From contig JAQZBQ010000012.1 of NCBI GenBank assembly GCA_029237825.1, forward strand, positions 1-64,000: DNA of 64,000 nucleotides, in the 5' to 3' direction. The notes beneath the pieces were generated by a model. That model saw nothing but the letters and a program-made list of their open reading frames with translations. It made no database searches and was not told the DNA's origin. This document shows, one piece after another, positions 3,527 through 30,545 of this stretch. The translations under genes were made by a program, and so were the position numbers. This DNA is from Bacteroidota bacterium. GTDB taxonomy: Bacteria; Bacteroidota; Bacteroidia; B-17B0; Aurantibacillaceae. The stretch's first letter is position 1. Every line of letters begins with the position of its first letter.

Positions 3527-3558
3527 TAAAAAAAACCTTCCGGATTGGGAAGGTTTTT
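3527..3558 (-). terminator. Intrinsic terminator after the first giant gene
   Basis: An 11-bp stem, AAAAACCTTCC (3531-3541) with GGAAGGTTTTT (3548-3558) and a 6-base loop, is followed on the minus strand by a run of Ts from the A-tract at 3527-3534. It lies 17 bases beyond the stop codon of the gene ending at 3576. Confidence 0.85.
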
Positions 3559-3575
3559 CTTTATTTAGTCGTTTT

Positions 3576-6500
3576 CTATCTAAAGAGGTTTAATGTCCCT
3601 TGTTTTTCTACGTATTGACTATCGAATCCTTCCGCTTTAATAAAATAGAAATAGGTTCCTTCCGGTACTTCCGCCCCCTGGGTACTGAGCCCGTCCCAAG
3701 CCGCTTTAGGACCGCTGAATTCATACATTTTTTGTCCCCACCGGTTAAATACCTGCAAGCTAATTTCTTTAATTCCTTTTGATTTGATGGTAAACAGATC
3801 GTTTACCCCATCTCCGTTCGGCGTAAATACATTGGGTACTTCAAGTAGAAACGGATCTTCAACTGTAATCACCGTTGTTGCCACCGAAGTACATGTGCCG
3901 GCGCTGTTCATCGCTATGAGTACCACCGAATATGTCCCTGGGTTCTCGAAAGTGTTGGATGGGTCAGATAATACTGATGTGTTTCCGTCATTGAAATTCC
4001 AGGTATAAGTTGCTGCTCCTGAACTTGTATTGGTAAAATTCACCGGAAGTGGAGATACACCCAAAATTGGATCTGCTGTAAAGGAAGCTGACACACTTTG
4101 ATCGATCACCTGCGCGCTGTCAATAGAAATACATCCGGATACGTTATCCGTAACAATCAGTGTATATGTTCCTGGTTCACTTACACCGCCCGCATTTTGG
4201 CCGGCAAATGTATAGCTGTTAGGGCCGAGCCATAAATAGGAAGTGTTTCCTGTGGTTGACGAGCCATTAAGTATAACGCTTCCACTATCACAAGGCAATA
4301 ACACACTTCCGCCTGCAGTAACACCAGCGGGTAAATTTACATTGGATGCAATTGAAAAAGTTTCGGTAGACATGCAACCGTTAGTTGTGTTTAAAACAGT
4401 CAACGTGTAATCGCCAGGGCCGGTTACTGTGGGCATTGTTGTCCCTGAATTACCCGATATGTTTCCCGTACCGCTCGTAGTCCATGTATAGGTAATATCT
4501 GCACCGGTCGATGATGCAGTTGCATCAATAGTTACCATCGTGTTTGTACAGGTAATACTTCCTGCCGTAGCGCTGTTTATCTGGGCTGTGGGTGGTGTAG
4601 TATTTAAAGCAAGCGACACCACAGAACCTGCGCTGCCAATAGTATTGGAACAGCCAGTCAGGTTATCAGTGATAGTTACAGAATAACTTCCCGCCTGATT
4701 AACAATCGGATTAGCTGTTGTTCCACCCGAAACGATTCCTGGTCCGGACCAATTATAGGAAACCCCTGTAGTTGGACTTGCACTTAATGCCACTGAAGGG
4801 GTAGCGCAGGTGATACTTGCTCCAGTCGCAGCGGAAGCCGCGGCGTTAGGTGCTACAGTGTTTTGCGAAACACTAATTGTTACCGGCACTGCGTTTGAGC
4901 AATCGCTGTTATTATCAGTAACTATAAGATTATATGTTCCTGGTTGATTCACCACCGGGTTCGCTGTATTAGCTCCGGAAGTAATTCCTGGTCCTGTCCA
5001 TGCATAACTTACACCGCTCGAAGGAGTTGCTGTTAAAGTAATTGCCGTTACATTACACGTCAATGTAGTGTTGCCGGCTCCTGATATCAATGGAGAAGGA
5101 ACGTTAATATTTTGTTGAACAGTAACGGTTGTTGAATTAGAGCATCCACTTATTGTGTTTGTAACCACGTACACGTAGTTTCCTGGTTGATTAATTACCG
5201 GATTAGTTGAAGTTGCGCCAGAAACGATTCCTGGCCCCGACCAGCTGTATGTCGAGGAAGATGAAGCCCCCCCGTTTAAATTTAAACTGGTAGCTGAGCA
5301 TGTAAGCGATCCTGTAACGCTGGCGTTGGCATTTGGTATTGCTCCGTTTTGCTGTACGATTACAGTCGCCGGTGCGCTCGAATTGGAACAACCGTTTGAT
5401 GTGTTCGTAACAACGAGTGTGTACGTTCCTGCCTGATTTACAATTGGTGAAGATGTGGTAGATCCTGAAACAATTCCAGGTCCGGACCAGTTATAAGTAA
5501 CACCTGTACCAGGGGTTGATGATAAGGCAACGGTTGCAGTGGAGCAGGTAATCGATCCATTTGCTGATGCCGTAACCCCGGCTGGTGGTGCTAAATCCTG
5601 AGGGATTGAAATGGTAGCTAAAGTCATACAACCTGAACTCGGATCCTGGATGGAAACAGAATAAGTTCCTCCACCAACACCCGCTGCGCTTTGGCTGTTT
5701 ACCCCTGAACTTACAGAACTACCCGCTGGAGCTGTCCATGTATAGGTATACCCGGCAGGCGAACAATTGAGGTTTACGTTTGTTGAGTTGCAGGTGACAA
5801 CGCTGTTGGTTGTTGCTGTTGCCGCTATAGCATTTGTATTTTGAGTGATGGTAACTACTGCCGGACTGGAAGCGTTTGAACAACCGTTTGAAAGGTCTGT
5901 GACAACCAATGAATAGGTTCCCGGTGCGTTTATGGTTGGTGATGCTGATGTCCCCCCGGAAACAATCCCGGGACCCGACCAGTTGTAGCTTACACCAGAT
6001 CCAGGAGAACCGCTTAAAATCAGCGATGTGGTACTGCAATTTAATACACTGCTTCCCGCGGCAGCAGCTGATGCAGAAGGATTGGTAATGTTTTGTGTGA
6101 TTACAACTGAGGCAGGGCTCGAAGCGTTACTACAGCCATTGGAGGTATTAGTAACAACAAGGTTATAAGTACCTGGTTGGTTAACTGTAGGATTGGCAGT
6201 ATTAGCGCCGGATGTTATTCCCGGTCCGGACCAGCTATAACTAACACCAGATGATGGTGAACCCGATAAAGACAATGAAGTTATGTTACAGGTCAAATTT
6301 GATCCGCTTACGGTTGAAGCTACTGCTGATGGAGGTGTAGTGTTTTGGGACACAGCTACTGATGTATTTGCCGTACAGCCGTTGGAAGGGTCGGTAACGG
6401 TCAAATTGTAGGTGCCAGACTGGTTTACTACTGGATTTGCAGTTGTCGCACCGGAAACAATTCCCGGACCAGACCAACTGTAGTTCACAGCAGTCCCTGA

Positions 6501-7802
6501 ACTTCCACTTAACGTTACATTTGGTGTTGAACAGGTTATAGCACCACCCGCACTCGCTGAAACCGAAGGGGGAGTAGTATTAGAAGAAACTGTTACAACG
6601 TTTGAAGAAGCACAGCCTCCAACAGGATCACTCACTGTTACTGTATAAGTTCCACCTCCTGAACCTGTGGCATTTTGTGAATTAACCCCAGCGATAATAG
6701 AACTTCCCGCTGGCGCGGCCCAAGAGTAATTCATTCCTGCCGGCGAAGCAGAAAGGTTGACAGTAGTATTCGTACAATTTACAACGCCAGAGCTCGATGC
6801 CGATGCTGCCGGGGGGATCCCGCTTTGGGTTACATTAATGGTTGAAGTCGATGCTCCCGGGCAGGCACCACCGCTTCCTGTTATTACAACAGTGTACACT
6901 CCGGGCTGATTTACCGTTACTGCATTTGTTCCATTACCCGAAACTACCCCGGGTCCCGACCAGGAATATGATGGCCCTGTTACAGATGTAGTTGCTGTTA
7001 AAACAGTAGAAAGTGTGGAACAGGTTAAATTGGTAGGGTTTGAAATTCCGGATGATAACTGGGGAAAAGGACAGGACGCAAAGTCACCAATTGTACTTGG
7101 AATACCGGAAAGAGATGTAAATGTGATGGTTGTTCCCGAGATGGTTCCTACATAGTTTCCACTCCCGCCAGACATGTAGAGTTTGTTGCCCACTATAGCA
7201 TACCCCGCACCCGAACTGGATCCTGGTAATCCTATGAGGGAATACGTACATAAAATTACTCCTGTAGGGCTGTATTTGGCTAATTTTTGGTATCCGGAAT
7301 TAGTATACAATACATAGAAGTTGCCATTGTCGTCCCCGATCAAATCATACGGCCCGTCCCAGTTAGTAAGTGTCAAAACCAACACGTCTGTACCGGTTCC
7401 ATTGTAGCGGTATACACGTGATCCTATTCCATCAAGATTATAAATATAAGGCCCCGCACCGCATATATTCACTGCCGAACCGCTGGAACAAGAGTGATTG
7501 GTGTTTACCCAGGTCGATCCGTTATAGTACCAATATTGTCCTGAAATTGTAGTGTAAAACGTTACAGCAGGGCTCGCACTATTTAGGTTATTACTTACAG
7601 CTAATCCATTTCCGGCTGCGGGACAGCTAATAGAATTTGCAACGTGTGATGATGTGGCCGGGTTATAAGTACGAATAACTGTGCCATCATGCAGATAAAA
7701 TTTGTTGCAATCAATAGGAATTTGTGCAAATGAAGAATAACTGCATACTAGTGCAATTAATAATGTCAAAGCACTAAAGGGAGAAGTAGTTTTTTTTATC
7801 AT
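3576..7802 (-). CDS. Giant secreted repeat protein with PKD domain and T9SS type-B CTD (unit 4)
   Basis: The predicted 1408-residue surface or secreted protein is exported by Sec and then the type IX secretion system. A signal peptide with a hydrophobic core (LTLLIALVC) ends at SSFAQ. About 220 residues with a propeller-like look follow, then about 12 Ig-like repeats of roughly 80 residues, each with a Y-x-W-S-G-P-G-I core and two cysteines. Next come a PKD domain (FTADPILGVSPLPVNFT to ITVE) and a C-terminal sorting domain with VPNVFTPNGDGVND, FNRWGQKMYEF and VPEGTYFYF, ending NLFR. I place the start at the ATG at 7802; a TTG at 7811 would add three residues. The gene follows a small secreted orphan by 44 bases and ends at a strong terminator. 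An adhesin or matrix role is inferred. Confidence 0.93.
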   Translation of the reverse strand: MIKKTTSPFSALTLLIALVCSYSSFAQIPIDCNKFYLHDGTVIRTYNPATSSHVANSISCPAAGNGLAVSNNLNSASPAVTFYTTISGQYWYYNGSTWVNTNHSCSSGSAVNICGAGPYIYNLDGIGSRVYRYNGTGTDVLVLTLTNWDGPYDLIGDDNGNFYVLYTNSGYQKLAKYSPTGVILCTYSLIGLPGSSSGAGYAIVGNKLYMSGGSGNYVGTISGTTITFTSLSGIPSTIGDFASCPFPQLSSGISNPTNLTCSTLSTVLTATTSVTGPSYSWSGPGVVSGNGTNAVTVNQPGVYTVVITGSGGACPGASTSTINVTQSGIPPAASASSSGVVNCTNTTVNLSASPAGMNYSWAAPAGSSIIAGVNSQNATGSGGGTYTVTVSDPVGGCASSNVVTVSSNTTPPSVSASAGGAITCSTPNVTLSGSSGTAVNYSWSGPGIVSGATTANPVVNQSGTYNLTVTDPSNGCTANTSVAVSQNTTPPSAVASTVSGSNLTCNITSLSLSGSPSSGVSYSWSGPGITSGANTANPTVNQPGTYNLVVTNTSNGCSNASSPASVVITQNITNPSASAAAAGSSVLNCSTTSLILSGSPGSGVSYNWSGPGIVSGGTSASPTINAPGTYSLVVTDLSNGCSNASSPAVVTITQNTNAIAATATTNSVVTCNSTNVNLNCSPAGYTYTWTAPAGSSVSSGVNSQSAAGVGGGTYSVSIQDPSSGCMTLATISIPQDLAPPAGVTASANGSITCSTATVALSSTPGTGVTYNWSGPGIVSGSTTSSPIVNQAGTYTLVVTNTSNGCSNSSAPATVIVQQNGAIPNANASVTGSLTCSATSLNLNGGASSSSTYSWSGPGIVSGATSTNPVINQPGNYVYVVTNTISGCSNSTTVTVQQNINVPSPLISGAGNTTLTCNVTAITLTATPSSGVSYAWTGPGITSGANTANPVVNQPGTYNLIVTDNNSDCSNAVPVTISVSQNTVAPNAAASAATGASITCATPSVALSASPTTGVSYNWSGPGIVSGGTTANPIVNQAGSYSVTITDNLTGCSNTIGSAGSVVSLALNTTPPTAQINSATAGSITCTNTMVTIDATASSTGADITYTWTTSGTGNISGNSGTTMPTVTGPGDYTLTVLNTTNGCMSTETFSIASNVNLPAGVTAGGSVLLPCDSGSVILNGSSTTGNTSYLWLGPNSYTFAGQNAGGVSEPGTYTLIVTDNVSGCISIDSAQVIDQSVSASFTADPILGVSPLPVNFTNTSSGAATYTWNFNDGNTSVLSDPSNTFENPGTYSVVLIAMNSAGTCTSVATTVITVEDPFLLEVPNVFTPNGDGVNDLFTIKSKGIKEISLQVFNRWGQKMYEFSGPKAAWDGLSTQGAEVPEGTYFYFIKAEGFDSQYVEKQGTLNLFR

Positions 7803-7846
7803 AGCAATCAAATTTTAAATTAGTAACAGGGAGATTTTACTGATGC

Positions 7847-8239
7847 TTAGTTTTTGTAGAGGTATTTTTTTAATAAGGTGTTTTTACCCGTTTCATTAAG
7901 TGAAACTTCAATTAATGACGACTTATCGTTAATCACATAGGTATAGTTTAAACCGTTAGTCGGCGACTTCACCTTATAACTTGTGGTATTGGTCTTTCCA
8001 TCATGCGAAACAGACTGCGCGGTGAGTTCAGCTTTCGATCCATCGCCAAAAACCTGCTGAATAGTTTTATTTGCTTCATTAAAAATAAAAATACTCGCGT
8101 CATTTTTTTCTATTGGTGAATCGTGCAAATGGGTTTGAGGATTCCACTCAAATTCCTGTACGTGGTAACATTGAAATTGTTGTTGCGAAAAAACGCTGGT
8201 AAGTGTACATGTAAAAAGTACTAGTAATATTCTTTTCAT
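7847..8239 (-). CDS. Small secreted protein of unknown function, upstream partner of the giant gene
   Basis: The 130-residue product has a clear signal peptide (MKRILLVLFTCTLTSVFSQQ) and a mature part of about 110 residues with no cysteine pair, membrane segment or motif that I recognise. Alternating polar and hydrophobic residues (ASIFIFNEANKTIQQVFG, NYTYVINDKSSLIEVSL) suggest a small all-beta fold. The gene ends 44 bases before the giant gene on the same strand and is probably cotranscribed with it. Two further units have a small secreted gene in the same position, although the sequences are not obviously alike. A subunit, chaperone or regulator of the giant is possible, but no function can be assigned. 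Confidence 0.8.
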   Translation of the reverse strand: MKRILLVLFTCTLTSVFSQQQFQCYHVQEFEWNPQTHLHDSPIEKNDASIFIFNEANKTIQQVFGDGSKAELTAQSVSHDGKTNTTSYKVKSPTNGLNYTYVINDKSSLIEVSLNETGKNTLLKKYLYKN

Positions 8240-8384: not shown

Positions 8385-8418
8385 AAAAAAAAGCCTTCCG
8401 ATAGGAAGGCTTTTTTTT
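8385..8418 (-). terminator. Intrinsic terminator overlapping the end of the second giant gene
   Basis: A near-perfect stem, AAAAAAAAGCCTTCC (8385-8399) with GGAAGGCTTTTTTTT (8404-8418) and a 4-base loop, is followed by T residues on the minus strand. The stem begins inside the stop codon of the gene ending at 8417. Confidence 0.88.
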
Positions 8419-11400
8419 ATCTGAACAGGTTAAGTGTTCCTTTTCGTTCTATCTCTGATTTATCAAATCCGGTTGCCCTCACAAAATAGAAATACGTACC
8501 CTCCGGCACCAACGTTCCATTTGGAGCCAAACCGTCCCAAGATGCTTTCGGGCCTGTAAACTCGTATAATCCCTCTCCCCAACGGTTGAAGATCTGGAGT
8601 GTTATTTCTTTCACTCCGGTAGAACGGATTGTAAAAACATCATTTGAGCCGTCGCTGTTTGGAGTAAATACATTAGGTATCTCAAGGCTCAATCCATCTT
8701 CTACGATAATTATCATAGATGTGGTATCAGAACAAATACCGGATGAGGCAATTAAGGTTACGGTGTAAGTTCCTGTTGGAAATACATTCGTTGGGTTTTG
8801 GGAAGTTGGGAAATAAGTTACCAGCGGAGATCCATCACCAAAATTCCACACCCAGTTGTTGGCACCTGTTGTTGCGTCTGTAAAATTGACTGTAAGTGGT
8901 GATTGCCCGGTAGTTGGATCGGCTGTGAACGCTGCATTTACAACAGAATATACAACACTAACAGTGGCGGTTGCCTGGCAGCCATTGTCGTTTCTTGTCA
9001 CAGTAAGCGTATAAATTCCTGCTTCGCCAACAACTGGGAAAGTTGTCGTACTTCCGGAAAGTATAGCTGTAGGTGACGGTCCGCTCCATTCGTAGCTGCA
9101 GTTAGGAGTTGCAGATGTTCCTGTAAGGGCAACTGTTTGACTGTTACATGGAATAAATGTAGTATTCCCCGCGTCAACATACTGTGGAGGATTGGTGCTA
9201 CCAATTACAGTAAAATAAGCAGTGTCGCTGCACCCGGTTATTGGATGAATACCGATAAGTGAATACGTTCCGGCGGCAGCGGCGTTATATTGTGGCGACG
9301 ATGTTGCGCCAGGTAACCAACTAATTACGCTGTTTGTAGGACTTGTGATGGCCTCCAGCGTCACAACAGTGTTTGTACCACCACATCCAATCGTACTGTT
9401 GGTTGATATGGCATTAATGCTTAATGATGGAACCGTCTTAATTTCATTTACTGTAAACGTATTAGCAGTATTGGTGCTACTGCTAACACAGCCCGTAATG
9501 GTATTTGTTACTGAAAGCGTATAAACGCCTGCAGCTGTAAAGCTCACACTGGCTTGGTTTACAGAACCGGAAATTCCTGAGGTAGGCGACCAGGTGTAAG
9601 TATAGTTACTTCCCGTGAGACCTGAACTGACAGTTAATGAAGCACTTGAACAACTAATGGTTCCGGAATTGGTAATGGTGGTAAAGTTCGCTGTTGGGCT
9701 CGTATTATCATTTACCACAGATACCACATTGTTCGAAATGCTTGTCGCGCATCCAGTTACAGTATTTGTTACCACTACACTGTAAGATCCTTGCGCATTA
9801 AAGACAGGATTAGCAGTTGTTTCTGTTCCGCTTACAATTCCCGTTGTTGGCGACCAACTATAGGTTACCGGGCTGGATGTGGTTGTTAAAGTCAGAGTTG
9901 GGGTTGTGTTTGTACAGGTAATTGATAAAGTATTTGAACTTAATGTAACAGCCGGTGTCCCAGCGTCTACTACCACTTCCACAGTAGATTGCGCAGCCGA
10001 ACTTGCCGATGTGCATCCGTTGATAGTGTTTGAAACAATTACCGTGTAAACTCCTGCTGTTGACGGATAAATTGGATTACCCGTAAGTGTGGTAGATGAT
10101 GGAGTTATCCATGTGTATGTTGTGTTTGGGTCATCACCGCTGCTGGCCGTTAATGTTGCTGAAGGATTTGAACAAGTGGTTGTAACACTACTTGCTGTTC
10201 CCATGGTAACATTTGGGGTGGAGGTATTTGACGAAACGGAGGCAGAAGCAGAGCCGACGCAACCATCACCGTTTGTTACACTCAATGTATAAACACCACT
10301 TTGGTTCACATTTATGTTTTGAGTATTTGAACTGCCAATAATTCCCGACCCGGTCCAGGTGTATGTCACACCACTTGAAGGGCTTGAGTTAAGCGTTACA
10401 CTTGACGATGCGCAGGTGATGGATCCCGAAGGAGTGATTACCGGTATAGTAGCGATTGTATTCGCGGTAACACCGATTGTTAAAGTTGTACTACACATGG
10501 AGGTGGTGTTTTGAACAACAACCGTATATTGGCCGCCCGCGTTTACATTTGCAGTTGCGGTGTTCGCTCCAGAAGTAATTCCTGGACCACTCCAGTTAAA
10601 TGAAACTGGTGAGGAACTGGTTGTTACTATTACTTGTGAGGTTGGGTTGATACATGTAATTGGATTGGATGAGGACACTGTTACAACAGGTCCGCCATTG
10701 TTTTGACTAACGGCTTGGGAACCGGTTGTAGAACAGCCGTTTGAAGTGTTTGTAACAGTGTAATTGTATGTGCCCGGCTGATTGACTGAGATGGTTCCTG
10801 TTCCGCTTCCACTTGTTATTCCTGGTCCGACCCAGTTATAAGATACTGGTGTAGTTCCTGTGCTGGCATTTACATTTACCGATGTTACGTTGCAATTTAA
10901 AACGCCGGAAACCCCTGCCGAAACGGATGGGGGAGTATTATCCTGAGTTACATTTACGGTAGCAACTGCTGACGGGCAACCTGCATTTGAAACAACAAGG
11001 CTATAGGTTCCCGGTTGATTTACAGTTGGGCTAGATGTTGTACCACCTGAAACAATGCCGGGTCCTGACCAGGAGTACGAACTTCCTCCAGATCCCGACA
11101 GCACTGTAGTAGTATTGATGCAATTAATTATTTTAGGCGACCCCGCATTTGCGGTAGGAACCGGATTTACTGTAAATTCTACTGAGGCGCAAGCGGTTGT
11201 GTTACATGAGCCTACTGCGCGAACATAGTAAGTAGTTGTTGTTCCGGGAGAAACAGTAATTGAAGAACCGGTGCCAACAAGCGAACCGCCACAGCCTCCC
11301 GCATACCATTCCCAATTAGCTCCTACTCCTAATGATCCGCCCGATAAGGTGAGTTGAGAACTAACATTTCCGCAAACGGGATTTGGGTTTGCACTGGCGC

Positions 11401-12199: not shown

Positions 12200-12241
12200 G
12201 GCGATCATTTTAAGGGAATTTATCAAATAGTCAAATATTTT

Positions 12242-12688
12242 TTACTGTATTTTAGAAATGGTCAGGTGCGAAAAAATATAGTTTTGAATCTCTTGTTTTT
12301 CCTGTTGCGACTTATTATCAAACGCTGTAAGAGTAAGATTTTGAATGTTTGGATCCGTGGAGGAACATTGTCCTTCGAGGGATTTTTGCGAGGCAATAGT
12401 AACAGATACGCGAGGCTGAGAACAACTTGTTTGGTAACTGAGTAATACCGCATAAGGATTTGTATTAATCAATTTTACAAATACAACATTCGTCCCATTG
12501 CATTCTGAATCGAAGCTATAGAACTGTATGCCATCCCGTTCATTCACTCCGTTTGTTCCCAAAGCTACAGGTTTCCACAATTCAGCAGGATGAGAAAGAG
12601 TAGCCTCTTTAAATACCAGATTTTGAGCTTTGAAAGAGGTTATTTTTAATAAAAGTAAACACGTAATAATGTAAAAACTTGCTTTCAT
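12242..12688 (-). CDS. Small secreted protein of unknown function (unit 3)
   Basis: The 148-residue protein has a signal peptide (MKASFYIITCLLLLKITSFKAQ). The mature part contains four cysteines (SECNG, TSCSQ, GQCSS among them) and a predicted beta-rich body (VVFVKLINTNPYAVLLSYQ), possibly disulfide-bonded. I recognise no family. It lies between a TMTC-like gene upstream and a giant Ig-repeat gene 42 bases downstream. A consensus promoter (12716-12745) lies directly in front, so the small and giant genes may form their own transcript. The equivalent position in two other units also holds a small signal-peptide protein. Confidence 0.8.
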   Translation of the reverse strand: MKASFYIITCLLLLKITSFKAQNLVFKEATLSHPAELWKPVALGTNGVNERDGIQFYSFDSECNGTNVVFVKLINTNPYAVLLSYQTSCSQPRVSVTIASQKSLEGQCSSTDPNIQNLTLTAFDNKSQQEKQEIQNYIFSHLTISKIQ

Positions 12689-14763: not shown

Positions 14764-14844
14764 CGATACGCGTTTAGACTGAATAGCAAATATATTAATT
14801 GTAAGGGCAAATTTTAGGTTGAATTCATTTAAAAGGACGTTAAT

Positions 14845-21199: not shown

Positions 21200-21230
21200 G
21201 CTAAAAATAATAATGTTGGGTTTACACAAA

Positions 21231-21729: not shown

Positions 21730-23397
21730 TTAATTGAGCGATTTAACTACTTGGTCGAGTTTAGGCTTAATAACAGGGTTCAGTTTTACTGTCTTCGCAT
21801 AATATTTTTTTACGCTATCCGGTTTATTTAGGCGTACAAAAGCTAAACAAAGATTTAATGGGATTTCATAATTAATGGTATCGAAACGCTGCGCTTTATG
21901 GAGCCAGTTAATTGCGCGTTGCGGCTGGTTATAAAAACTAAGGTCGATATACGCCAGTGTATTTAAACTGTTATAATATGTCGAATCGAGTTGATTAGCT
22001 TTTAACATGTGGTTATAAGCTAGCTCAACGTGTTCCGAAACTGCTTCACTTTTTATCAGGCCTGTTTTTTTTGTAATGTTCTCAATAATTTCGTTGGCAT
22101 ATAAAATGTTGAGCTTAATTGAATTCGGCCATTTTTTGACATCTGATTTATATAGCGTAAGGTTGTTATTCCATTCTGAATTCCGGTTTATCGTTTGCCA
22201 GGAGTAAATGCCGAGAATGGTAATGGTCATCAATACCAGGCCTGATTCGGAGATCAGTTTCTTTGATCTTAAGAACACGAAAACTTTTTTGAATATTTGT
22301 GTGATAATGATGGAATAGCCAACTGATGAAAAAAAGGTAAAACGATCGCCAACGATACCCGGGACTGGTTCTGCTACCTGCAAGTATAAACTGATCGGAA
22401 GTATAAATAGTATTAATCCTATCCATAACTGTTCCGGCTTTTTCAGAAACTTGAAAAAAACAAACAATGATACGGAAGCAGTTATCACACCAACTAAAAA
22501 ATAGTGACTTATACCTAACGGAATAGTATATAGCCCGTAATAACAAGCGAGTTTGGCGGGAACTACCAATTTAAGGATATAGAATCCAAGGCAATTCAAT
22601 CCTACGGATAACCGGAAAAGGTAATCGTACTGTAATTCTTCGGGGCGTTCGAAATTATAAAACGGATGATGGTCTGTGCCGCCGTCAAGTGCGGTATACC
22701 GTATAATCTGATACGAAACGAAACCTAATGGAAGAACTAAATACGTAATCCACTGCTTTTTTAAATTGAACCCGTGATTTTTAATAAGTACAATAGGTAT
22801 GATTAAAATAAATGGGAGTGCTTCGATTTTTGACAGAAATGCCAACACTGAAAACAGGTAAGCCCAAAACAGATACTTCCGTTTTTCATAAGAAATAGCC
22901 TTGTTAAGGTGCAGAAAAGATAGGAATGTAAAGATGAAGCATAAAAGTATATCTCTGTTTTTTAAGCTTGCCACTACTTCGGTGTGAAGTGGCAGCACAG
23001 CAAAAAGAAGAATAGTGCATGCAAGCTCCAGGGCATCGGCAGAAACTATCTGCTTTAGGAATTTATAGAGTAAGATCAATGCCAGCCAATAGAGCAGAAT
23101 ATTAATTAAATGACTTGCCTTAGGGCTTCCTTTGAAAAGCGTATGTTCTAATGCAAATGTTATTTTAACAAGGGGTCGGTACTCAAAATAATTGTTGTTT
23201 TCATTCTCAGCATAAAAACTCTTGAATATTTCAGGAGCAGCGCTGATGCCCTTTTTTACCGTCGCATTTAATGTCACATAATGGTCGTCAATAGTAAAAC
23301 CATTGTTAATTGTATTCCCATAAAGCATCATAGTAATGATGAAGAGAAGCGCGAACCATTTTTTTTCCTCTTTGAGAATAGTGTGAAGAAATTTCAT
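21730..23397 (-). CDS. TMTC-like GT-C membrane glycosyltransferase (subfamily B, unit 2)
   Basis: The 555-residue polytopic protein has the same build as the other TMTC-like genes: a first membrane helix, YGNTINNGFTIDDHYVT with D37-D38, FEYRPLVKITFALEH, and the signature LPLHTEVVASLKNRDILL near residue 140, in which the usual His-Pro is Leu-Pro. About ten membrane segments and a short tail of two to three TPRs follow, making it the shortest of the four. It is closer to the gene at 26672-28561 (shared SLKNRDILL and KGxSAxxEIF) than to the other two. It stands first in unit 2, before a small secreted gene and the 2100-residue giant. Acceptor and sugar are unknown; protein O-glycosylation is inferred. 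Confidence 0.83.
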   Translation of the reverse strand: MKFLHTILKEEKKWFALLFIITMMLYGNTINNGFTIDDHYVTLNATVKKGISAAPEIFKSFYAENENNNYFEYRPLVKITFALEHTLFKGSPKASHLINILLYWLALILLYKFLKQIVSADALELACTILLFAVLPLHTEVVASLKNRDILLCFIFTFLSFLHLNKAISYEKRKYLFWAYLFSVLAFLSKIEALPFILIIPIVLIKNHGFNLKKQWITYLVLPLGFVSYQIIRYTALDGGTDHHPFYNFERPEELQYDYLFRLSVGLNCLGFYILKLVVPAKLACYYGLYTIPLGISHYFLVGVITASVSLFVFFKFLKKPEQLWIGLILFILPISLYLQVAEPVPGIVGDRFTFFSSVGYSIIITQIFKKVFVFLRSKKLISESGLVLMTITILGIYSWQTINRNSEWNNNLTLYKSDVKKWPNSIKLNILYANEIIENITKKTGLIKSEAVSEHVELAYNHMLKANQLDSTYYNSLNTLAYIDLSFYNQPQRAINWLHKAQRFDTINYEIPLNLCLAFVRLNKPDSVKKYYAKTVKLNPVIKPKLDQVVKSLN

Positions 23398-23429: not shown

Positions 23430-23462
23430 AAAAAAGCCCCTTTATTTTGAAATAAAGGGGCT
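23430..23462 (-). terminator. Intrinsic terminator after the unit 1 giant gene
   Basis: A GC-containing stem, AGCCCCTTTATTT (23435-23447) with AAATAAAGGGGCT (23450-23462), is followed on the minus strand by Ts (A-tract 23430-23435). It lies 20 bases past the stop of the gene ending at 23482 and just before the next TMTC gene. Confidence 0.85.
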
Positions 23463-23481
23463 CACTTAAATAGTTGATCTC

Positions 23482-26400
23482 TTATTTGAACAGGTTTACT
23501 GTACCTTGTTGTTCAATTGTTTTATCATCGAAACCGATGGCCTTTACGAAATAAAAATAAGTGCCTTCCGGAACGGATGTTCCTCGGTTTGTAATTCCAT
23601 CCCATTGTGCATTTTGCCCGGTGAAATCATACAACTTTTGTCCCCAACGGTTAAATATTTGTAGTGAAATTTCTTTAATACCATTTGATCTGATAAAAAA
23701 TACTTCATTTACACCATCGCCATTCGGCGTAAATACATTTGGTATTTCCAGTGAAATTGGATTTTCAACAATAATTACCGTAGTGGAAGTAGAAATGCAG
23801 GAACCTTCGGTTACCGTTAAAGCTACGGTATAAGTTCCAACTGTAAACGTGTGAACGGGGTTTGCCGATGTAGAAGTACTTGCGTCACCAAAATCCCAGA
23901 AGTAATTTATAGATCCGGAGCTTGTATTAGTAAAGTTTACACTTAAAGGCGAATTCCCTGTTGTTGGATTTGCGCTAAAAGCAGATGTGACAGTCGCTTG
24001 AGAAATTGTTACAGTGGACGTAGACGAACACCCATTTGTCTGGTCGGTAACTGTCAGTGTATAATCTCCGGTGTCAAACGCAATTGGGTTAGCGATAGTT
24101 GAGTTACTGAGACTGCCAGCATTTGGCCCGGCCCAATTGTACGTAACTGAATTCGTAGATGTTGTAGTACCGTTCAAACTCACCGATTGTACCCCACAAG
24201 CCATCATGACGTTACCAATAGTGGCACCAGGCAATGCATTATCCTGTGAAACCAGTGTTGTGGCTGTTGCTGTACAACCATTGGCTGCTGTTGATGTTAC
24301 GGTATATATACCAGGTTGGTTAACAACGGCCGTCGATGAGGAACCTCCGCTTAAAATTCCAGGACCTGCCCATGTAAATGAATTTCCGTTAAGAGCAGTT
24401 AGAGTACTTGTGGTTGATGAACAGGTAAGTGTACCCGAATTTGAAGCAGTAGTGGCTGGCGGATTCGTATCCTCTGGTACGGTAATGGTTGCAGTTCCGG
24501 TGCAGCCTGTTACATCCGTTACACTAACAACAAAAGGCCCCGGACCATTAACAACAGGATTCGCAGTATTTGATCCGGAGATAATTCCTGTTCCTGTCCA
24601 AACATACGGTCCGCCTCCTGTAGCTGTGAGCATTACAGTTGTAGTAAGGCAGGTTAAGGTGCTATTACTTGACGCGCTAACTGCCGGCGGAACATCATTT
24701 TGAGCTACAGTTGCGGTAGCTGCCGCCGTACAACCATTTGCCGCTGTAACAATTACGGTATAAGGTCCAGTTGAATTCACAACCGGGTTTGCCGTATTAT
24801 TTCCAGAAACAATGCCTGTGCCCAACCAAGAGTACGTTCCCCCTCCTGAGCAAGATAGTGTGGCGGTTGGATTGGCACAACTAATAGTAGATGAGGAAGA
24901 AGCTGAAGCAACCGGCGGCGTTATGTCTTGAGGCACGGAGGCGTTTGCACTTGCCGTGCAACCGTTTGCAGCGGTTACTGTAACTACATAGGGTCCTGTT
25001 GAATTCACAATAGGTGAAGCTGTATTCCCTCCTGATACAATTCCAGAACCAGACCAACTATAGGTTCCTCCTCCGGTTGCTGTTAAAGTTACAGTTGGAG
25101 TAAGACAAGTAATTGTTCCGGAACCAGAAGCAAAAGCCGTTGGCGGTGTATTATCCATTGCTACTGATGTACTGGCAGTAGCAGTACATCCATTTGCAGC
25201 TGTAACTGTAACTACATAAGGTCCTGTGTTGTTTACCACTGGGTTAGCAGTGTTGCCGCCGGATACAATCCCGGTTCCAGCCCATGAATAAGTTCCCCCT
25301 CCTGTAGCGGTTAATGCCGCTGTTGGAGTGGTACAGGTGATTGTTGCGGAGTTGGTTGCAGAAGGAGTAGGTGGAGTAACATCCTGCGTAACGGCTACCG
25401 TTGAAGGAGCAGACGGACAGGGCGGTGAAGTGATGGATGACACAATTAGACTATAGGTTCCTGGTTGCCCAACAGTTGGGCTGGCTGTGTTACCACCAGA
25501 TAAAATCCCTGGGCCAGACCATGAATATGTGCCACCTCCGGTACCGGTTAAAACAACCGATGGGTTAGTACAGTTAAGAACGGCAGGACTTCCGGCATTT
25601 GCTGTTGGTGCGTTATTTACATTTACAGTCACGGTTTTCGTATCCTGGATACACCCGCCGATACTGGTTCCGGAGATCGTATAAGTGGTGCTGACCAGCG
25701 GTGAGACGACGATCGGAGCATTTACTGTACCTGTCGACCAGGTATAAGTTGGTATTCCGGAGGCGGTTAAGGTTGCCGATTGGCCAGCGCAGATAGGTGA
25801 TCCAGCCCCGACTACTGAAATGGTGGGAGTGTTACAAAATACACCGGATTGTTCCAGAAAAACATTGGAATCATAAAAACCATCAGCTCGATCCACAAGA
25901 GCCATAAAGAGGGTATAAGTTGCACAAGGTGTTACATTTGCACTTGCAGTTAATATGGAGGTCATACCATCCATGGTAATTCCTGATACGGTATGGCTGT
26001 AGTAAGCACAATTTACGCAAGGTCCGGTGTTCGAATTTCCATTGTTAATTGAGTTAACGGCTACACCAACTACCGTTGAACCGGGAACTGTTGCCATGTT
26101 GAAATTGCTATAATTTCCTCCGGAAGGGTTGGGCCCTGAAATGAAGAAACCAAATGCATCATTATAAGAGGAACCCACATATCCATTGTACTCTTCTGAT
26201 CCGAAGCGGTAGCGGATATTTAAATTATTACATTTTGGGGTAACCTGAAAGCCTAAATAACATCCATCGTAAGTACTTGATCCCATTGCAGCGATACCAG
26301 TAGCTAAATTATCTGTACTCGCGAAATTAGAAGGCGCTCCTGCTGCGTCTACTACTCTTCCTGTAGATAACACAACCCCATTGGTAAAACCTAATCCGGT

Positions 26401-26586
26401 ACTGCCACCATTTGAAAAGATTCCATTGGCCACACCAGGACAAGTAAGTGTAGGACTTGTAATGGTTACACCGCCCCCTAAGAGGTTATTAGCTAATGCA
26501 ATGGCTGTAGTGTTGGCTGTTACTGATAATTGTGCGTGTGAAAGGATTGAAACAACTAGAAATAAAAAAAGGTAGACTTTTCTCAT
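23482..26586 (-). CDS. Secreted protein with choice-of-anchor L domain, Ig-like repeats, PKD and T9SS CTD (unit 1)
   Basis: The 1034-residue exported protein has a signal peptide (MRKVYLFLFLVVSILSHAQ). A choice-of-anchor L-type domain follows at about residues 20-250 (AIALANNLLGGGVTI, FGSEEYNGYVG, YNDAFGFFISGP, TLFMALVDRADG), a domain found at the N-terminus of many bacterial surface proteins. Then come about eight Ig-like repeats, several of them 76-residue near copies (SGGNTANPVV, GPYVVTVTAANGCTA), a PKD domain (YFWDFGDAS) and the sorting domain (IPNVFTPNGDGVNEVFFIRS to GTVNLFK). It lies downstream of two TMTC-like genes and has no small secreted gene directly upstream, unlike the other giants. 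A surface or adhesion role is inferred. Confidence 0.93.
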   Translation of the reverse strand: MRKVYLFLFLVVSILSHAQLSVTANTTAIALANNLLGGGVTITSPTLTCPGVANGIFSNGGSTGLGFTNGVVLSTGRVVDAAGAPSNFASTDNLATGIAAMGSSTYDGCYLGFQVTPKCNNLNIRYRFGSEEYNGYVGSSYNDAFGFFISGPNPSGGNYSNFNMATVPGSTVVGVAVNSINNGNSNTGPCVNCAYYSHTVSGITMDGMTSILTASANVTPCATYTLFMALVDRADGFYDSNVFLEQSGVFCNTPTISVVGAGSPICAGQSATLTASGIPTYTWSTGTVNAPIVVSPLVSTTYTISGTSIGGCIQDTKTVTVNVNNAPTANAGSPAVLNCTNPSVVLTGTGGGTYSWSGPGILSGGNTASPTVGQPGTYSLIVSSITSPPCPSAPSTVAVTQDVTPPTPSATNSATITCTTPTAALTATGGGTYSWAGTGIVSGGNTANPVVNNTGPYVVTVTAANGCTATASTSVAMDNTPPTAFASGSGTITCLTPTVTLTATGGGTYSWSGSGIVSGGNTASPIVNSTGPYVVTVTAANGCTASANASVPQDITPPVASASSSSTISCANPTATLSCSGGGTYSWLGTGIVSGNNTANPVVNSTGPYTVIVTAANGCTAAATATVAQNDVPPAVSASSNSTLTCLTTTVMLTATGGGPYVWTGTGIISGSNTANPVVNGPGPFVVSVTDVTGCTGTATITVPEDTNPPATTASNSGTLTCSSTTSTLTALNGNSFTWAGPGILSGGSSSTAVVNQPGIYTVTSTAANGCTATATTLVSQDNALPGATIGNVMMACGVQSVSLNGTTTSTNSVTYNWAGPNAGSLSNSTIANPIAFDTGDYTLTVTDQTNGCSSTSTVTISQATVTSAFSANPTTGNSPLSVNFTNTSSGSINYFWDFGDASTSTSANPVHTFTVGTYTVALTVTEGSCISTSTTVIIVENPISLEIPNVFTPNGDGVNEVFFIRSNGIKEISLQIFNRWGQKLYDFTGQNAQWDGITNRGTSVPEGTYFYFVKAIGFDDKTIEQQGTVNLFK
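24480..25400. repeat. 228-base tandem repeat array inside the unit 1 giant gene
   Basis: About four copies recur at 228-base spacing: the CAACC(A/G)TTTG-type block appears at 24731, 24959 and 25187. Each period codes for one 76-residue Ig-like domain with an AANGCTA segment. Copies differ by scattered substitutions but keep length and frame, a mark of slippage or unequal recombination. Confidence 0.75.
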
Positions 26587-26671: not shown

Positions 26672-28561
26672 TTATTTATTGTTTAATACGTCGATTATTT
26701 TTAATAGTTGGCCATCTCCTGGCTTCATGCGAGACGCATTGCCTAAATGCCTCAAAGCGCTTGCTGTATCAGCTTTAGCGATATACAAATTGCCAAGTAA
26801 AAGGTTCAATTTAAAACTTTGCGGATTAAGCGTTAATTGTTTTTGTATGATATTAATTCCCTCACCAGCTATTTTTTCATCCGAATAAATCACTGACATG
26901 AGTTCCAGGGTGTGATCGTCTTCAGGTTTTAGACGAAAAGCGCGATGTATGTATTTTCTTGACTGGGTAAACTCGTTTAGATTAAAATGGGCCAAGGCTA
27001 AATTATAAACGATCTCGTGCTTATTGCTGTCAATCGCATAAGCCCTGCTGATATAGGTTTTAGCTGTTTGATAGTCTCTGTAAAAGTTAAGGTAGATAAA
27101 AGAGAGATTGTTCAAAGCCTTAATATTTAAGGAATCCATACTCAAAACTGTTTTTAAAGATGCTTCGGCTTTCTGAACGTATTTTTGTTTTTCTGAATTC
27201 GGTATCAAACTATTGGGTTTAATAACTTCCGAAATAATCTCATTTCCGAAAAGGTTGTGAAGTTTTAATGAACGGGGTTGAGCTTTTATATCTTGTGTAT
27301 ATAAGTGGAGTGAATTTTTCCAATCTGAGTTCCGTGAAAAAACAAAGAGGAAATTCGCACAAAGAATTAATATAAAAACATAACGAAACTTTTTACTACT
27401 ATCTGAGAACATCTGAGGTAGCGTGTTCCCATTGAGGTTTTTAACTAATAGATATACAAACACAACTGAAAAACCAATGGATGGGATAAACGCAAACCTG
27501 TCAGCTACTATGCCTGGAACAGGTTTTAACAGATTTAAGTACATGGATAAAGAAATGAAAAAAATGACCAATCCCGCCATTATAGGATTTTTCAAGTCTT
27601 TAAGGTACACTATTATTAATGCTACCGATCCTGCTGTTCCTAAAACTGCAATTAAATTTTCAAGGGTAACGAGATCAAATACGTGTAGCGTATCATAACC
27701 ATAATACGCTGCCATGCCATATGGTATAAAAAGCATTTTGAAATAAAACCCCAGTGAGTTTAGAGCAGTTGTAAGCCTTAAAGCAAATGAATCGGATACA
27801 AACAAAGGATTTTCGTAAAATTCTACCGGGCGTTTTATTTGCGATTGATCTACCAGGATATTCATGAGTGTATCAAACGTATAATACCCAATTACTAGCG
27901 TAATTAAGATTAAAATCGCATAGGCAATGGTAACACGTTTTTGTACTATCAACAATAAAGGAAAGATAACAATGAGTGTAAGAGAATCTAACTTCGAAAG
28001 AAGTGATATAGAAAAACATAGCCATGCTGCTAATAAATAAAAAAAGTTTTTAGAGTGGCTAAATTTTAAAAGATAGAGAAAACACAAGCCTGAAAATATA
28101 AAGGATAACAAGATATCTCTGTTTTTTAAGCTTGCCACCACTTCGCAATGTAATGGGATGAATGCAAAAAAAATAACAACCAATTCTGAAAACAAGGGGG
28201 GATAGTCTGCGAATAACCGGGAACACATAAGAAAGAGAATGAAAAGGCACAAACCATACAGTAAAATATTAATGCCGTGACTTATTAAAGGTTTCACCCC
28301 AAAAATCTCGTGTTCAATAGCATAGGAGAGTTTAACCAAAGGCCTGTATTCAAACGTATTGATTCCACCTTCTTCCACTATATAATGTGACGTGAATATT
28401 TCTTTAACGGCACTGAGGCCTTTACTGGTATTGCTTCTGCTGGTGGTAACGAAGTTGTCGTCTAACGCGTAGGTGTTTTTTAGTGTATTTCCATATAAAA
28501 GAAAGGCACATAATGTAAAAAAAAGAAATTTGTAGTTGTATATAAACGAAACTGGCGCCAT
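26672..28561 (-). CDS. TMTC-like GT-C membrane glycosyltransferase with TPR tail (subfamily B, unit 1)
   Basis: The 629-residue polytopic membrane protein contains YGNTLKNTYALDDNFVT with D34-D35, FEYRPLVKLSYAIEHEIFG, and the signature IPLHCEVVASLKNRDILL near residue 140. The family's HTE reads HCE here and the preceding His is Ile. Around ten membrane segments are followed by about four TPRs (residues 440-625; NSEKQKYVQKAEASLKTVL, AKTYISRAYAIDSNKHE). The ATG at 28561 lies 7 bases after the stop of the other TMTC gene, so the two are almost certainly cotranscribed, with the choice-of-anchor L giant downstream. The HCE/HTE change may alter donor or acceptor choice or reflect relaxed constraint. 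Confidence 0.84.
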   Translation of the reverse strand: MAPVSFIYNYKFLFFTLCAFLLYGNTLKNTYALDDNFVTTSRSNTSKGLSAVKEIFTSHYIVEEGGINTFEYRPLVKLSYAIEHEIFGVKPLISHGINILLYGLCLFILFLMCSRLFADYPPLFSELVVIFFAFIPLHCEVVASLKNRDILLSFIFSGLCFLYLLKFSHSKNFFYLLAAWLCFSISLLSKLDSLTLIVIFPLLLIVQKRVTIAYAILILITLVIGYYTFDTLMNILVDQSQIKRPVEFYENPLFVSDSFALRLTTALNSLGFYFKMLFIPYGMAAYYGYDTLHVFDLVTLENLIAVLGTAGSVALIIVYLKDLKNPIMAGLVIFFISLSMYLNLLKPVPGIVADRFAFIPSIGFSVVFVYLLVKNLNGNTLPQMFSDSSKKFRYVFILILCANFLFVFSRNSDWKNSLHLYTQDIKAQPRSLKLHNLFGNEIISEVIKPNSLIPNSEKQKYVQKAEASLKTVLSMDSLNIKALNNLSFIYLNFYRDYQTAKTYISRAYAIDSNKHEIVYNLALAHFNLNEFTQSRKYIHRAFRLKPEDDHTLELMSVIYSDEKIAGEGINIIQKQLTLNPQSFKLNLLLGNLYIAKADTASALRHLGNASRMKPGDGQLLKIIDVLNNK

Positions 28562-28568: not shown

Positions 28569-30509
28569 CTAATTGAAAGTGTATTTTTTAGCTAACGTGG
28601 AGTCGTTCAGCTTTTGAGCTTGTTCGGTGATATAGCCTGCCAGTTGAGGCGACGGCTTCAGTGAATAAGCTAACTCACATGCTTTTAATGATTTTCGGAT
28701 ATCACCCAAAAAATAGTAACAGTTTGCTTCCTGTGTTATTAGGTCATAATTGTTAGGGAATTGCGTGTGCGAGAATCTGATAAATCGCAAACACTGTTCA
28801 TAATGTTTAGCTTCTAAAAAAAGATTTATACACAGAATGTAAGGGCCGAAGTCGCTGGGTTTGCTGATGATAGCCTGCTTGTAGTTTTGAAACGCTAACT
28901 TTAGATTTTTTTCCTGTTTAAAACAATTTCCTAGGTTAATAAATGCCTGGGCGTAATTTGATTTATGTTTGATCGCTAAAGAAAAATATTTTTTTGCTTC
29001 ATTCAAGTCGCCAAGAAACGAATAATAAATCACCCCTGCGTTATTGTAGGCTGTGAAAAAGGATGAATCTGTTTTTAACGCGACTTGATAATGATGAAGC
29101 CCTTTTTGAATGAGTGCAGGGTTTTTATGACTTTGGTTTGGCGATCGTAAGGTTTCGAAATATTCATTCGCTATTAAGCTATTTGCTTTGGCAGAATTCT
29201 TTAAATAAGTACTATCGTGTTCAAACAGGCTCAATTTATTATACCAGTTTGTATTGCGTTTCATAACGTAAATTAGGCATATGAGAATTAGTGGAGCAAG
29301 TACAATATATGGTTTCCGTGAAAAAACGACAATTCCAGAAAACGGTTGCACTGAGAAAAACGGTAAAATGACGATAGCCATTAAAAAACAAAATGCAAGA
29401 GAACTGATAAAGGTTAACCGTTCTGCTACAATTCCTGCTACCGGCATTATAATATTTAAAAATGGAAACAACATTAGGCAGAGCCAAAGGAATCCAAATA
29501 AAAAGTTCCGATCCCGCGTCTTGTAGAAATAAATGAAACAGATGATAACAAAGGTTAAGGCAATAATTGCATATTGATTAAAATCGGTTGAAAGATCAAA
29601 AGTGTTATAGCCATAGTAATACCTTAATGGGTACGGAATTATCATCATCTGGATGTAAAAACCGAACGTTTTAATGCCAATGATGAGTTTATGAAGAAAA
29701 TCATAATGTTCAGTAGACATAGGGTTTTCAAAATGATAGTAATTTCTAAAGTTGGCTTCTGTTGGAACGATGTTACTAAAAGCATCAAAACATATGTATA
29801 AGAAATAAACGGAGGCTACTAAAAGGATAAATTTCTTTGCGCCAATCCTGCGATAAAAGAGGATAACCAGTGGTATCGAAAACATGATCAAAACAGCCGA
29901 TAGTTTTGAAAAGAACCCTAAAAACATAAAAACTCCTGCAAGGATCGCATCCTTAAATGTGGGTTTTTGAAGAAAGGATAAAATATTTTTTAGGGCAAGC
30001 AGTGAGAAAATAAGGGCTAAAATCTCGTCCCTGCATTTTAAACTGGCCACAACCTCTGTATGAAGAGGATGAATTAAAAAGAGAACGGCTGTTAAAAATG
30101 ACAAGGTAGTTTTATGGGGGTGGTCCTTCAATATCATATAGATTACCTTGAAAACCAGGCAAATCAAAATAAAATAAAGAAAAACATTTACTGAATGACT
30201 TATAAACGGATTCTGACCAAAAATACCGTATTCGATTGCGAAGGTTGTAGTAACTACCGGGCGATAATCAAAGGAAAATTCTGAATCATGGGCGTAACGA
30301 CTTAACCAGATCTTGGGGATGCTTAGAAAACCTTTTTCTATATAAGGATTATTTGGTTTATATGCTGAACCCTTTACTGGAAAATTGGTGACCGTTACGT
30401 AATCGTCATCCAGTGAATACTTATTTCTCAGTGTATTTCCGTAAAACAAAAATGTCAGGATAAAAAAACATACAAAGATGTTTTTATATTCACCAAACAT
30501 TTCTCGCAT
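28569..30509 (-). CDS. TMTC-like GT-C membrane glycosyltransferase with TPR tail (subfamily A, unit 1)
   Basis: The 646-residue polytopic protein has YGNTLRNKYSLDDDYVT (D34-D36), PNNPYIEKGFLSIPKIW, FDYRPVVTTTFAIEY and HPLHTEVVASLKCRDEIL near residue 140, the closest of the four to the eukaryotic TMTC signature. The C-terminal 200 residues form about four to five TPRs (YNNAGVIYYSFLGDLNEAKK, AFINLGNCFKQEKNLKLAFQ). It pairs with the unit 3 gene at 12808-14763 by shared CRDE and PNNPxIEKG stretches. The first ATG is at 30509 (a TTG at 30515 is in frame). A perfect -7 box ends only three bases before this ATG, so the transcript may be leaderless or the start may be the next ATG at 30500. It is the first gene of unit 1. 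Confidence 0.84.
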   Translation of the reverse strand: MREMFGEYKNIFVCFFILTFLFYGNTLRNKYSLDDDYVTVTNFPVKGSAYKPNNPYIEKGFLSIPKIWLSRYAHDSEFSFDYRPVVTTTFAIEYGIFGQNPFISHSVNVFLYFILICLVFKVIYMILKDHPHKTTLSFLTAVLFLIHPLHTEVVASLKCRDEILALIFSLLALKNILSFLQKPTFKDAILAGVFMFLGFFSKLSAVLIMFSIPLVILFYRRIGAKKFILLVASVYFLYICFDAFSNIVPTEANFRNYYHFENPMSTEHYDFLHKLIIGIKTFGFYIQMMIIPYPLRYYYGYNTFDLSTDFNQYAIIALTFVIICFIYFYKTRDRNFLFGFLWLCLMLFPFLNIIMPVAGIVAERLTFISSLAFCFLMAIVILPFFSVQPFSGIVVFSRKPYIVLAPLILICLIYVMKRNTNWYNKLSLFEHDSTYLKNSAKANSLIANEYFETLRSPNQSHKNPALIQKGLHHYQVALKTDSSFFTAYNNAGVIYYSFLGDLNEAKKYFSLAIKHKSNYAQAFINLGNCFKQEKNLKLAFQNYKQAIISKPSDFGPYILCINLFLEAKHYEQCLRFIRFSHTQFPNNYDLITQEANCYYFLGDIRKSLKACELAYSLKPSPQLAGYITEQAQKLNDSTLAKKYTFN

Positions 30510-30512
30510 ATT

Positions 30513-30545
30513 CAAATATAACTATGTTATCCAATACCAGGCAAA
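30513..30545 (-). promoter_or_regulatory. Possible promoter of unit 1, directly at the start codon
   Basis: On the minus strand TTTG (30542-30545), then 21 bases, then TATATTTG (30513-30520). The -7 box ends three bases before the ATG at 30509, which would give a leaderless message. The sequence match is good; use in vivo is unproven. Confidence 0.35.

Follow-up and report, generated by a model that had tools for sequence, protein, structure and literature searches.

Gene order and setting of the array

The window analysed here is a stretch of 64,000 nucleotides (contig JAQZBQ010000012.1) from the 3.55-Mb, 33-contig draft genome of a Bacteroidota bacterium. Its minus strand carries an array of four giant surface-protein genes interspersed with genes for small signal-peptide proteins (S1 to S4) and for predicted membrane glycosyltransferases that resemble the TMTC proteins of eukaryotes. 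Along that strand the order is S4, TMTC, TMTC, giant 1 and a terminator; TMTC, S2, giant 2 and a terminator; TMTC, S1, giant 3 and a terminator; S3, giant 4 and a terminator; and then rpsL, rpsG and fusA. S4 (30591-30986, 131 residues) has its own terminator (30570-30549, from a hairpin scan) and a conserved position upstream of the first TMTC gene (28569-30515), whose product is a TMTC-like enzyme of predicted glycosyltransferase fold C (GT-C) with tetratricopeptide repeats (TPRs) and scores 25.6 bits with PMT_2, slightly below the cut-off. The second enzyme of the pair (26672-28561) has no PMT_2 match at E <= 0.01. Giant 1 (23482-26586, 1034 residues) is composed of a choice-of-anchor L head, immunoglobulin (Ig)-like repeats, PKD and a CHU_C type-B C-terminal domain (CTD) of the type IX secretion system (T9SS), with matches to NF038133 (E 1.5e-53) and CHU_C (E 8.9e-23), and the hairpin scan places its terminator at 23434-23463. 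The third enzyme (21730-23397, 555 residues, with a short TPR part) scores 33.7 bits against the PMT_2 cut-off of 26.1 and precedes S2 (21231-21581) and giant 2 (14897-21229, 2110 residues), which has an H2a head ('GNTC.QATPFCT'), Ig_7 repeats and CHU_C, and is followed by a hairpin (14847-14880) with a 14-pair stem and a minus-strand T run. The fourth enzyme (12808-14862, with a likely start at a Met near 14763) belongs to a TMTC group designated clade D and precedes S1 (12242-12688) and giant 3 (8417-12226, 1269 residues), which has a Cys-rich H1 head, PKD_6, Ig_7 and CHU_C; the hairpin after giant 3 (about 8385-8418) was read from the sequence and is not in the scan list. The array closes with S3 (7847-8239) and giant 4 (3576-7811, 1411 residues), with PKD, CHU_C and a head without a Pfam match, and a hairpin at 3531-3558. 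The four heads are thus distinct. Signal peptides of the small genes in the array, and of small genes elsewhere in the same genome, were judged by eye.

Gene calls, domain matches and hairpins bear out the initial annotation of TMTC, small-protein and giant genes grouped with terminators on one strand, including its claim that each giant ends at its own hairpin: a hairpin with a T run lies within ~50 bases of all four. The first group does contain two TMTC genes, but it was said to have no small gene, and S4 sits upstream of the pair. Terminator-like matches are near chance overall (14 against 9.7, standard deviation 3.1; 15 against 16.2), so the weight rests on the location of the long stems and not on their count. 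A Bacteroidota-type promoter pattern occurs at chance frequency in the window (6 against 5.2), as do sigma-70-type matches; one match to the former (30545-30513) lies 5' of the first TMTC gene and was not relied on.

All four giants end in a CHU_C domain that scores 72.9-80.7 bits against the Pfam cut-off of 27, and TIGR04131 is above its cut-off in both giants scanned for it. Because 48 CHU_C domains are above the cut-off in the genome, type-B giants are common in it. The anchors of the array are mutually 66-80% identical and form one group (support 0.70) in a quick tree of 44 of the 48 anchors, and the nearest anchor outside the array (L293) is 59-66% identical to them. Only the anchor domains are alike, however. 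The three other TMTCs of the array share 29-31% identity with the first, the families of the small genes are mutually unrelated and the heads differ; the earlier description of four repeats of one unit was therefore abandoned. If one operon had recently been duplicated in tandem, with parts lacking functional specificity, the similar gene order of the units and the identity of their CTDs would be accounted for. This explanation is extremely improbable: the TMTCs, ~30% identical, fall into separate clades or branches, and small proteins and heads are unrelated across units. In a tree of 99 TMTCs, the enzymes at 12808 and 28569 each belong to a well-supported clade of their own that includes members from other genomes, and the 21730 and 26672 enzymes form separate branches within one larger group, a topology that largely refutes such a duplication.

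The array is bounded on the right by rpsL (2722-3135), rpsG (2224-2691) and fusA (101-2215), identified with Pfam on the minus strand, and on the left by a divergent plus-strand block (31161-35778) of two KASIII-like genes, a short-chain dehydrogenase/reductase (SDR) gene, an ArnC/PgfS-like family 2 glycosyltransferase (GT2) gene (34160-35137), whose product has two C-terminal hydrophobic stretches, and a PseH-like GNAT gene (35134-35778). The order KASIII, (S4), TMTC, giants, rpsL-rpsG-fusA is found in the window, in genome G005 (loci L086 and L038) and in genome G024 (L045 and L250), with a varying number of giants, and it is also seen on two unlinked contigs of genome G003 (L055, L247). An rpsL gene also lies beside an array or a TMTC gene in L038, L062, L104, L247 and L250.

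Small secreted proteins and the heads of the giants

The strongest link in the region is that of small protein to giant, which the initial annotation missed. S1, S2 and S3 have no Pfam or NCBIfam match at E <= 0.01, and Pfam at E <= 1 leaves S1 and S2 without a coherent family. The S1 and S2 searches were seeded with genes beside giants and then run across whole genomes, blind to neighbours. For S1 they returned 28 rows in 21 of 199 genomes at E <= 0.001; once two weak rows that do not correspond to small genes (L166, L173) were removed, 26 genes remained, six of them seeds. For S2 they returned 33 rows in 28 of 100 genomes at E <= 0.01; 27 genes, including five seeds, remained after removal of L199-L201 (not of the family), a truncated piece, the second piece of one gene and a weak row without a locus. 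An open reading frame (ORF) was counted as rich in Ser, Thr, Gly and Asn (S/T/G/N) at a combined fraction of 0.40 or more. S1 is directly upstream of such an ORF on the same strand in 24 of 26 cases (18/20 without seeds) and S2 in all 27 (22/22 without seeds), with gaps of -28 to 55 bases. Longer regions were taken at 20 S1 or S2 genes that have no TMTC upstream, and the giant has a type-B end in 18 of them; the two without a type-B profile match are the giant end at L242 and the ORF at L244, which is also below the giant threshold. At three of the 20 (L237, L238 and L243) a TMTC gene lies on the opposite strand one or two genes past the giant.

Small family and head type are matched. The heads (first ~175 residues) that follow S1 and S2 form clusters of 18, 14, 12 and 4 together with five singletons, and every cluster is pure for one small family, with no mixing among the 48 clustered pairs. 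The head label changes once on the S1 tree, against a shuffled mean of 3.8, and three times on the S2 tree, against shuffled means of 8.9 and 8.8; in both cases none of 500 shuffles was as low. The S1 model is compact and mostly beta (predicted local distance difference test score, pLDDT, 86.5), and two Cys are invariant in the family. It has no Foldseek match at E <= 0.001 and a best structure-comparison Z of 5.8, and since a common beta arrangement can give a value of this size we claim no fold family for S1.

S3 has orthologues at L247 (55% identity) and L049 (44%), and a giant follows directly after both. For S4, tblastn identified 12 relative loci at 26-46% identity; in 13 loci besides the window the gene precedes the first TMTC, and KASIII is on its far side in 10 of them. 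Two further S4 candidates (L056:13611-14099 and L091:2053-2487), with E 0.004 in a single comparison and 20.8 bits and none, respectively, were not used. Outside the array, a survey of type-B giants of at least 678 residues in the same genome, which left out smaller giants and one running off its contig, placed a small signal-peptide gene directly upstream of four of 30 giants, none of them with a TMTC. These four genes (L206, L210, L214 and L221) lie 4-21 bases before type-B giants and are outside the S1-S4 families, so the small-plus-giant layout extends beyond the array. The L206 protein has a weak S2-like score, and the L210 gene precedes the giant that bears the anchor closest to those of the array (L293).

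TMTC-like enzymes and their pairing with giants

In addition to the four TMTC-like genes of the array, the genome contains two divergent ones, and at least 54 of 60 related genomes have a TMTC match. One of the divergent genes (L117, C3:24810-26411) is 92 bases from an opposite-strand ORF of 463 residues that carries a type-B T9SS domain. The PMT_2 cut-off is passed by two of the window's four TMTCs. Among 52 aligned family members, PMT_2 is matched by 26 and TPR_2 by 50 at E <= 1; no TPR match was found at E <= 0.01 in the 555-residue TMTC of the window. DUF1736 (PF08409) was not found in the four window TMTCs at E <= 0.01, one reaching E 0.066 at a looser limit; at E <= 1 it is matched by 25 of the 52 aligned proteins (best 4.8e-7). 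An Asp pair in the first external loop (D35 D36) is invariant in the 52-row alignment, and human TMTCs are described as having a DD motif in the first loop (PMC7801869). Among the motifs SHKSYRP, RxD, KE(T/Q)xxT, DW and ERxxY, YRP and three single residues (an R, a K and a further R) appear by eye to have equivalents in the 52-row alignment.

An AlphaFold2 model of the TMTC at 12808-14862, built with 51 relatives, has a pLDDT of 92.8. Structure comparison with VIA matched it to a yeast oligosaccharyltransferase chain (8agb_A; Z 18.9, root-mean-square deviation (rmsd) 4.5, 322 residues aligned), Pmt4 (Z 17.0, rmsd 4.5, 345 aligned), ArnT (Z 16.1, rmsd 4.9, 329 aligned) and a Pmt1-Pmt2 chain (Z 16.0), with the TPRs following the GT-C part. 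The match shows the GT-C fold generally and not TMTC specifically. The membrane part gave no match at E <= 5 to sequences of solved structures, the sequence including the TPRs gave TPR proteins among the matches listed, and Foldseek with the model was likewise headed by TPR proteins among the 50 matches listed, so the GT-C match rests on the VIA comparison. The window TMTCs are predicted to be GT-C enzymes of TMTC-like build, and the GT-C model is a confident one; the original label of protein-glycosyltransferase-like enzyme fits the one modelled TMTC, which has the predicted fold of protein glycosyltransferases.

To count pairing, TMTC genes on contigs from two collections were examined for an S/T/G/N-rich giant following on the same strand; a single small gene and any number of TMTCs were allowed in between. 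Rows outside the window were banded by likeness to the window's TMTCs, and contig-edge rows were set aside (3, 2, 4 and 3 from the best to the lowest band). In the best band a giant follows 25 of 31 evaluable TMTCs (34 rows, 3 edges), several of these rows being near-copies from sister genomes, compared with four of 151 control genes of at least 300 residues (161 genes, 10 edges) taken from 20 arbitrarily placed 20-kb regions, seven in the same genome and 13 in 11 related genomes. The six misses are L043, L049, L083, L062, L095 and L096; L043 is followed by a 255-residue giant fragment at a contig end, which afterwards scored as H1, and the L049 region is broken by Ns. In the lowest band (score under 150) a giant follows one of six TMTCs (9 rows, 3 edges). 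On the tree of 99 TMTCs, in which eight contig-edge rows are unlabelled and L100, a duplicate of L081, is omitted as it is from the head and GT2 counts, the label for a giant downstream changes 12 times, against a shuffled mean of 27.1. Since the score measures likeness to the window's TMTCs, it is a close subfamily that is tied to giants and not TMTCs generally.

One TMTC clade is matched to one head type. Clade D has 12 rows and extends to records titled Flavobacteriales. An H1 giant follows in 11 of 11 evaluable rows, compared with 0 of 19 other TMTC-giant pairs (Fisher p 1.8e-8, with rows that are not independent); six of the 11 heads are in the H1 profile and five (L040-L044) are outside it. 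S1 lies between TMTC and giant in 11 of the 12 rows, several of which are S1 seeds. Clade D occurs with H1 under varied flanks (the window array, L073, L040-L042 and L044), which speaks against mere shared position.

A proposed modular adhesin system and its alternatives

Gene order and its conservation, the predicted enzyme fold and the co-segregation of TMTC clade, small family and head are the observed basis for our preferred reading, to which we give a little less than even weight: the region may be an old array of four distinct head-specific adhesin modules with a common anchor, served by a dedicated small partner and glycosyltransferase. We infer that the giants are glycosylated and that the small proteins bind the heads. 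Each giant has its own head and a shaft built of Ig-like/PKD repeats, and the type-B T9SS anchors are closely similar; a predicted small secreted protein is encoded directly upstream in three modules and a TMTC-like GT-C enzyme upstream in three. The ArnC-like GT2 of the neighbouring block would place an amino sugar, possibly N-acylated, onto polyprenyl phosphate; during the giant's entry into the periplasm, the inner-membrane TMTC would transfer the sugar to Ser/Thr residues in the head or in the repeats; and the small protein would bind the matching head in the periplasm, as a chaperone, a recognition adaptor or a tip subunit. Export by the T9SS would follow, with the CTD anchoring the giant. 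In a stricter version, each TMTC would modify only the giant with the matching head, the small protein supplying recognition, so that heads are separately decorated; we regard this version as rather unlikely.

Several observations weigh against the modular reading or against the interpretation first offered. A giant follows only four of 38 TMTCs in the second band (40 rows, 2 edges) and none of 18 in the third (22 rows, 4 edges), so that the enrichment in related genomes proposed at first holds for close relatives and not for distant ones. No TMTC precedes any of the 30 other type-B giants of at least 678 residues in the genome. TMTC-linked giants contain 31.6% Ser/Thr, compared with 29.4% in other giants (p = 0.056), which does not clearly set them apart as Ser/Thr-rich partners, and Ser/Thr content was rejected as a marker of TMTC linkage; for Thr alone, one of six features tried, the values are 18.4% and 17.1% (nominal p = 0.038). 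The general O-glycosylation motif of Bacteroidota is D(S/T)(A/I/L/V/M/T). It shows no excess in 18 complete TMTC-linked giants (45 seen, 58 expected by shuffling), 27 other giants have 145 against 141 expected, and this motif too was rejected as a marker. Heavier glycosylation of TMTC-linked giants is thus not clearly supported by composition. S3-giant pairing rests on three loci, and S4 accompanies the TMTC rather than a giant, L083 having S4 without the usual giant after it. At L044, clade D and H1 occur without S1. Many compared rows are closely related (for example L040-L042, L087/L088 and L092/L093), and operon co-inheritance alone could produce co-segregation without contact between the products. 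The modular surface glycoprotein system of the initial annotation is accordingly supported in part, by pairing in close relatives and the GT-C fold; the Ser/Thr content, the distant TMTCs, the KASIII-adjacent TMTCs without a giant and the 30 other giants do not support it in its original form.

The relation of S1 to H1 is also looser when approached from the head. A whole-genome search with the H1 head gave 42 rows in 32 of 199 genomes, 17 of them the profile's own S1-linked members. The presence of S1 before 18 of the 20 best H1 rows is circular and was not used as evidence, 17 of the 20 being profile members picked for following S1. Among clear H1 rows outside the profile, one (G187:C52) follows S1 and eleven, at 94-165 bits, are without S1 (G153, two each in G043, G033 and other contigs of G187, and one each in G066, G152:C96, G064 and G139). 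Six of the eleven were read (L268 and L270-L274), and for the other five the S1 search lists none on the contig. S1 thus accompanies H1, or a smaller head group, and H1-like heads also occur without S1. At L270 the gene before the H1-like head is a 381-residue ORF of ordinary composition, and one S1 gene (L167, G027:C16:71655-72095) has no giant and is followed by an ORF of ordinary composition, a further point against the reading.

The small proteins could instead be the functional partners of the giants, as chaperones, export factors or tip subunits, with the TMTCs independent of both. The small-giant pairing is tighter and wider than that of TMTC and giant: a recognised TMTC is directly upstream of S1 in six of 26 cases, all seeds (0/20 new genes), and of S2 in nine of 27 (5/22 new genes), and among the other giants of the genome four of 30 follow a small signal-peptide gene and none a TMTC. 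The match of clade D to H1 (11/11 against 0/19) speaks against this independence, which we consider distinctly unlikely.

A further alternative is that the TMTCs belong to the KASIII/GT2/GNAT block and act on a lipid or envelope glycan, the giants having merely accumulated before rpsL. The KASIII-KASIII-SDR-GT2-GNAT block recurs beside TMTC genes, even those without giants. KASIII is present in 32 of 81 TMTC loci and an ArnC/PgfS-like GT2 in 23, all with KASIII; of the nine KASIII loci without GT2, two (L048 and L071) are long, and most of the others are truncated. A single weak GT2 match, of 42 bits, was obtained in the 20 control regions. A giant is absent downstream in 15 of 24 evaluable KASIII-adjacent TMTCs, for example L062, L104, L071, L095, L097 and L099; the TMTCs of L062 and L104 lie directly between KASIII and rpsL. 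Related GT-C enzymes, ArnT among them, act on lipid A, which would agree with such a role. However, in the window, L045 and L056, TMTCs distant from KASIII alternate with giants, and clade D occurs with H1 under other flanks, with no other head type seen after clade D. On balance we judge this account unlikely.

The KASIII-KASIII-SDR-GT2-GNAT block is possibly a lipid-linked sugar donor pathway, and from the established biochemistry of ArnC and ArnT a polyprenyl-phosphate sugar is a plausible TMTC donor; the GT2 in 23 of the 81 TMTC loci counts in favour of the modular reading. In the Arn pathway (ArnC/ArnT) and in streptococcal Pgf O-glycosylation, a polyprenyl-phosphate GT2 acts with a GT-C transferase encoded nearby. 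The array resembles them in having the two kinds of gene near each other, with similarity below threshold only, and differs in its KASIII/SDR genes, in a GT-C enzyme that bears TPRs and in the adhesins of the same locus. The scores of the block count against the modular reading: the GT2 reaches 120.7 bits with ArnC and 113.0 with PgfS, far under the NCBIfam cut-offs of 529 and 500, the GNAT reaches 47.2 bits with PseH against a cut-off of 93.1, and the KASIII matches are below the NCBIfam cut-offs. Possible O-glycosylation of exported proteins is also common to the array and to general Bacteroidota O-glycosylation; the array differs in that the motif of the latter is not enriched in TMTC-linked giants.

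Type-B CTD adhesins are described as having a cognate PorP/SprF-like shuttle for the CTD, the gene for which commonly lies directly downstream (PMC12618676, PMC9143113), and F. johnsoniae is described as also having orphans that share one shuttle (PMC12618676). The array shares with SprB/SprF systems a CHU_C/type-B CTD, giant repeat adhesins and a dedicated partner next door, and differs in that the SprF partner is a downstream shuttle acting at the CTD, whereas here it is an upstream small secreted protein matched to the N-terminal head. The genome has 17 clear PorP/SprF genes and one partial match; one lies close downstream of 13 of the 48 type-B domains, with coordinates compared by eye, and a whole-genome search found none in the array, the nearest on the contig being at C5:84080-84967. 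With eukaryotic TMTC1-4 the array TMTCs share a predicted GT-C membrane part with a DD motif and C-terminal TPRs, as these proteins are described (PMC7801869), and part of the bacterial family also has a DUF1736-like segment. They differ in that DUF1736 does not reach significance in the window's TMTCs, in that some of the human motifs are not evident and in that the bacterial proteins occur as several paralogues, one clade with one adhesin-head type. Cadherins are named as the targets of human TMTCs (PMC11292533), and cadherin extracellular (EC) domains are described as immunoglobulin-like (PMC13123603).

Known cargo specificity of the type-B T9SS is that of C-terminal anchor and shuttle, and a second, N-terminal specificity appears here. 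It consists of unannotated small-protein families matched to giant heads across several Bacteroidota families and of a GT-C clade matched to one head type. If the TMTCs act on the giants, they would be a genetically simple bacterial counterpart of cadherin O-mannosylation by eukaryotic TMTCs, and the adjacent enzyme and candidate substrate would allow a direct test of recognition by the TMTC family. The arrangement suggests that these bacteria may provide dedicated helpers for each of their surface proteins. The module was not described in titles and abstract openings of open-licence papers among the matches listed.

G+C is near 0.47 in the giant genes (4001-6000, 10001-12000, 18001-20000 and 24001-26000) and about 0.35-0.39 in their neighbours, probably from Ser/Thr/Gly-rich codons. 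Beyond the KASIII/GT2 block, three adjacent genes of the Asp/Asn-hydroxylase family resembling the lipid hydroxylases LpxO and OlsC occupy 35753-37942, one of them on the opposite strand, and a NodU-like carbamoyltransferase gene adjoins one for a 138-residue SET-domain protein at 37943-40123 on the minus strand.

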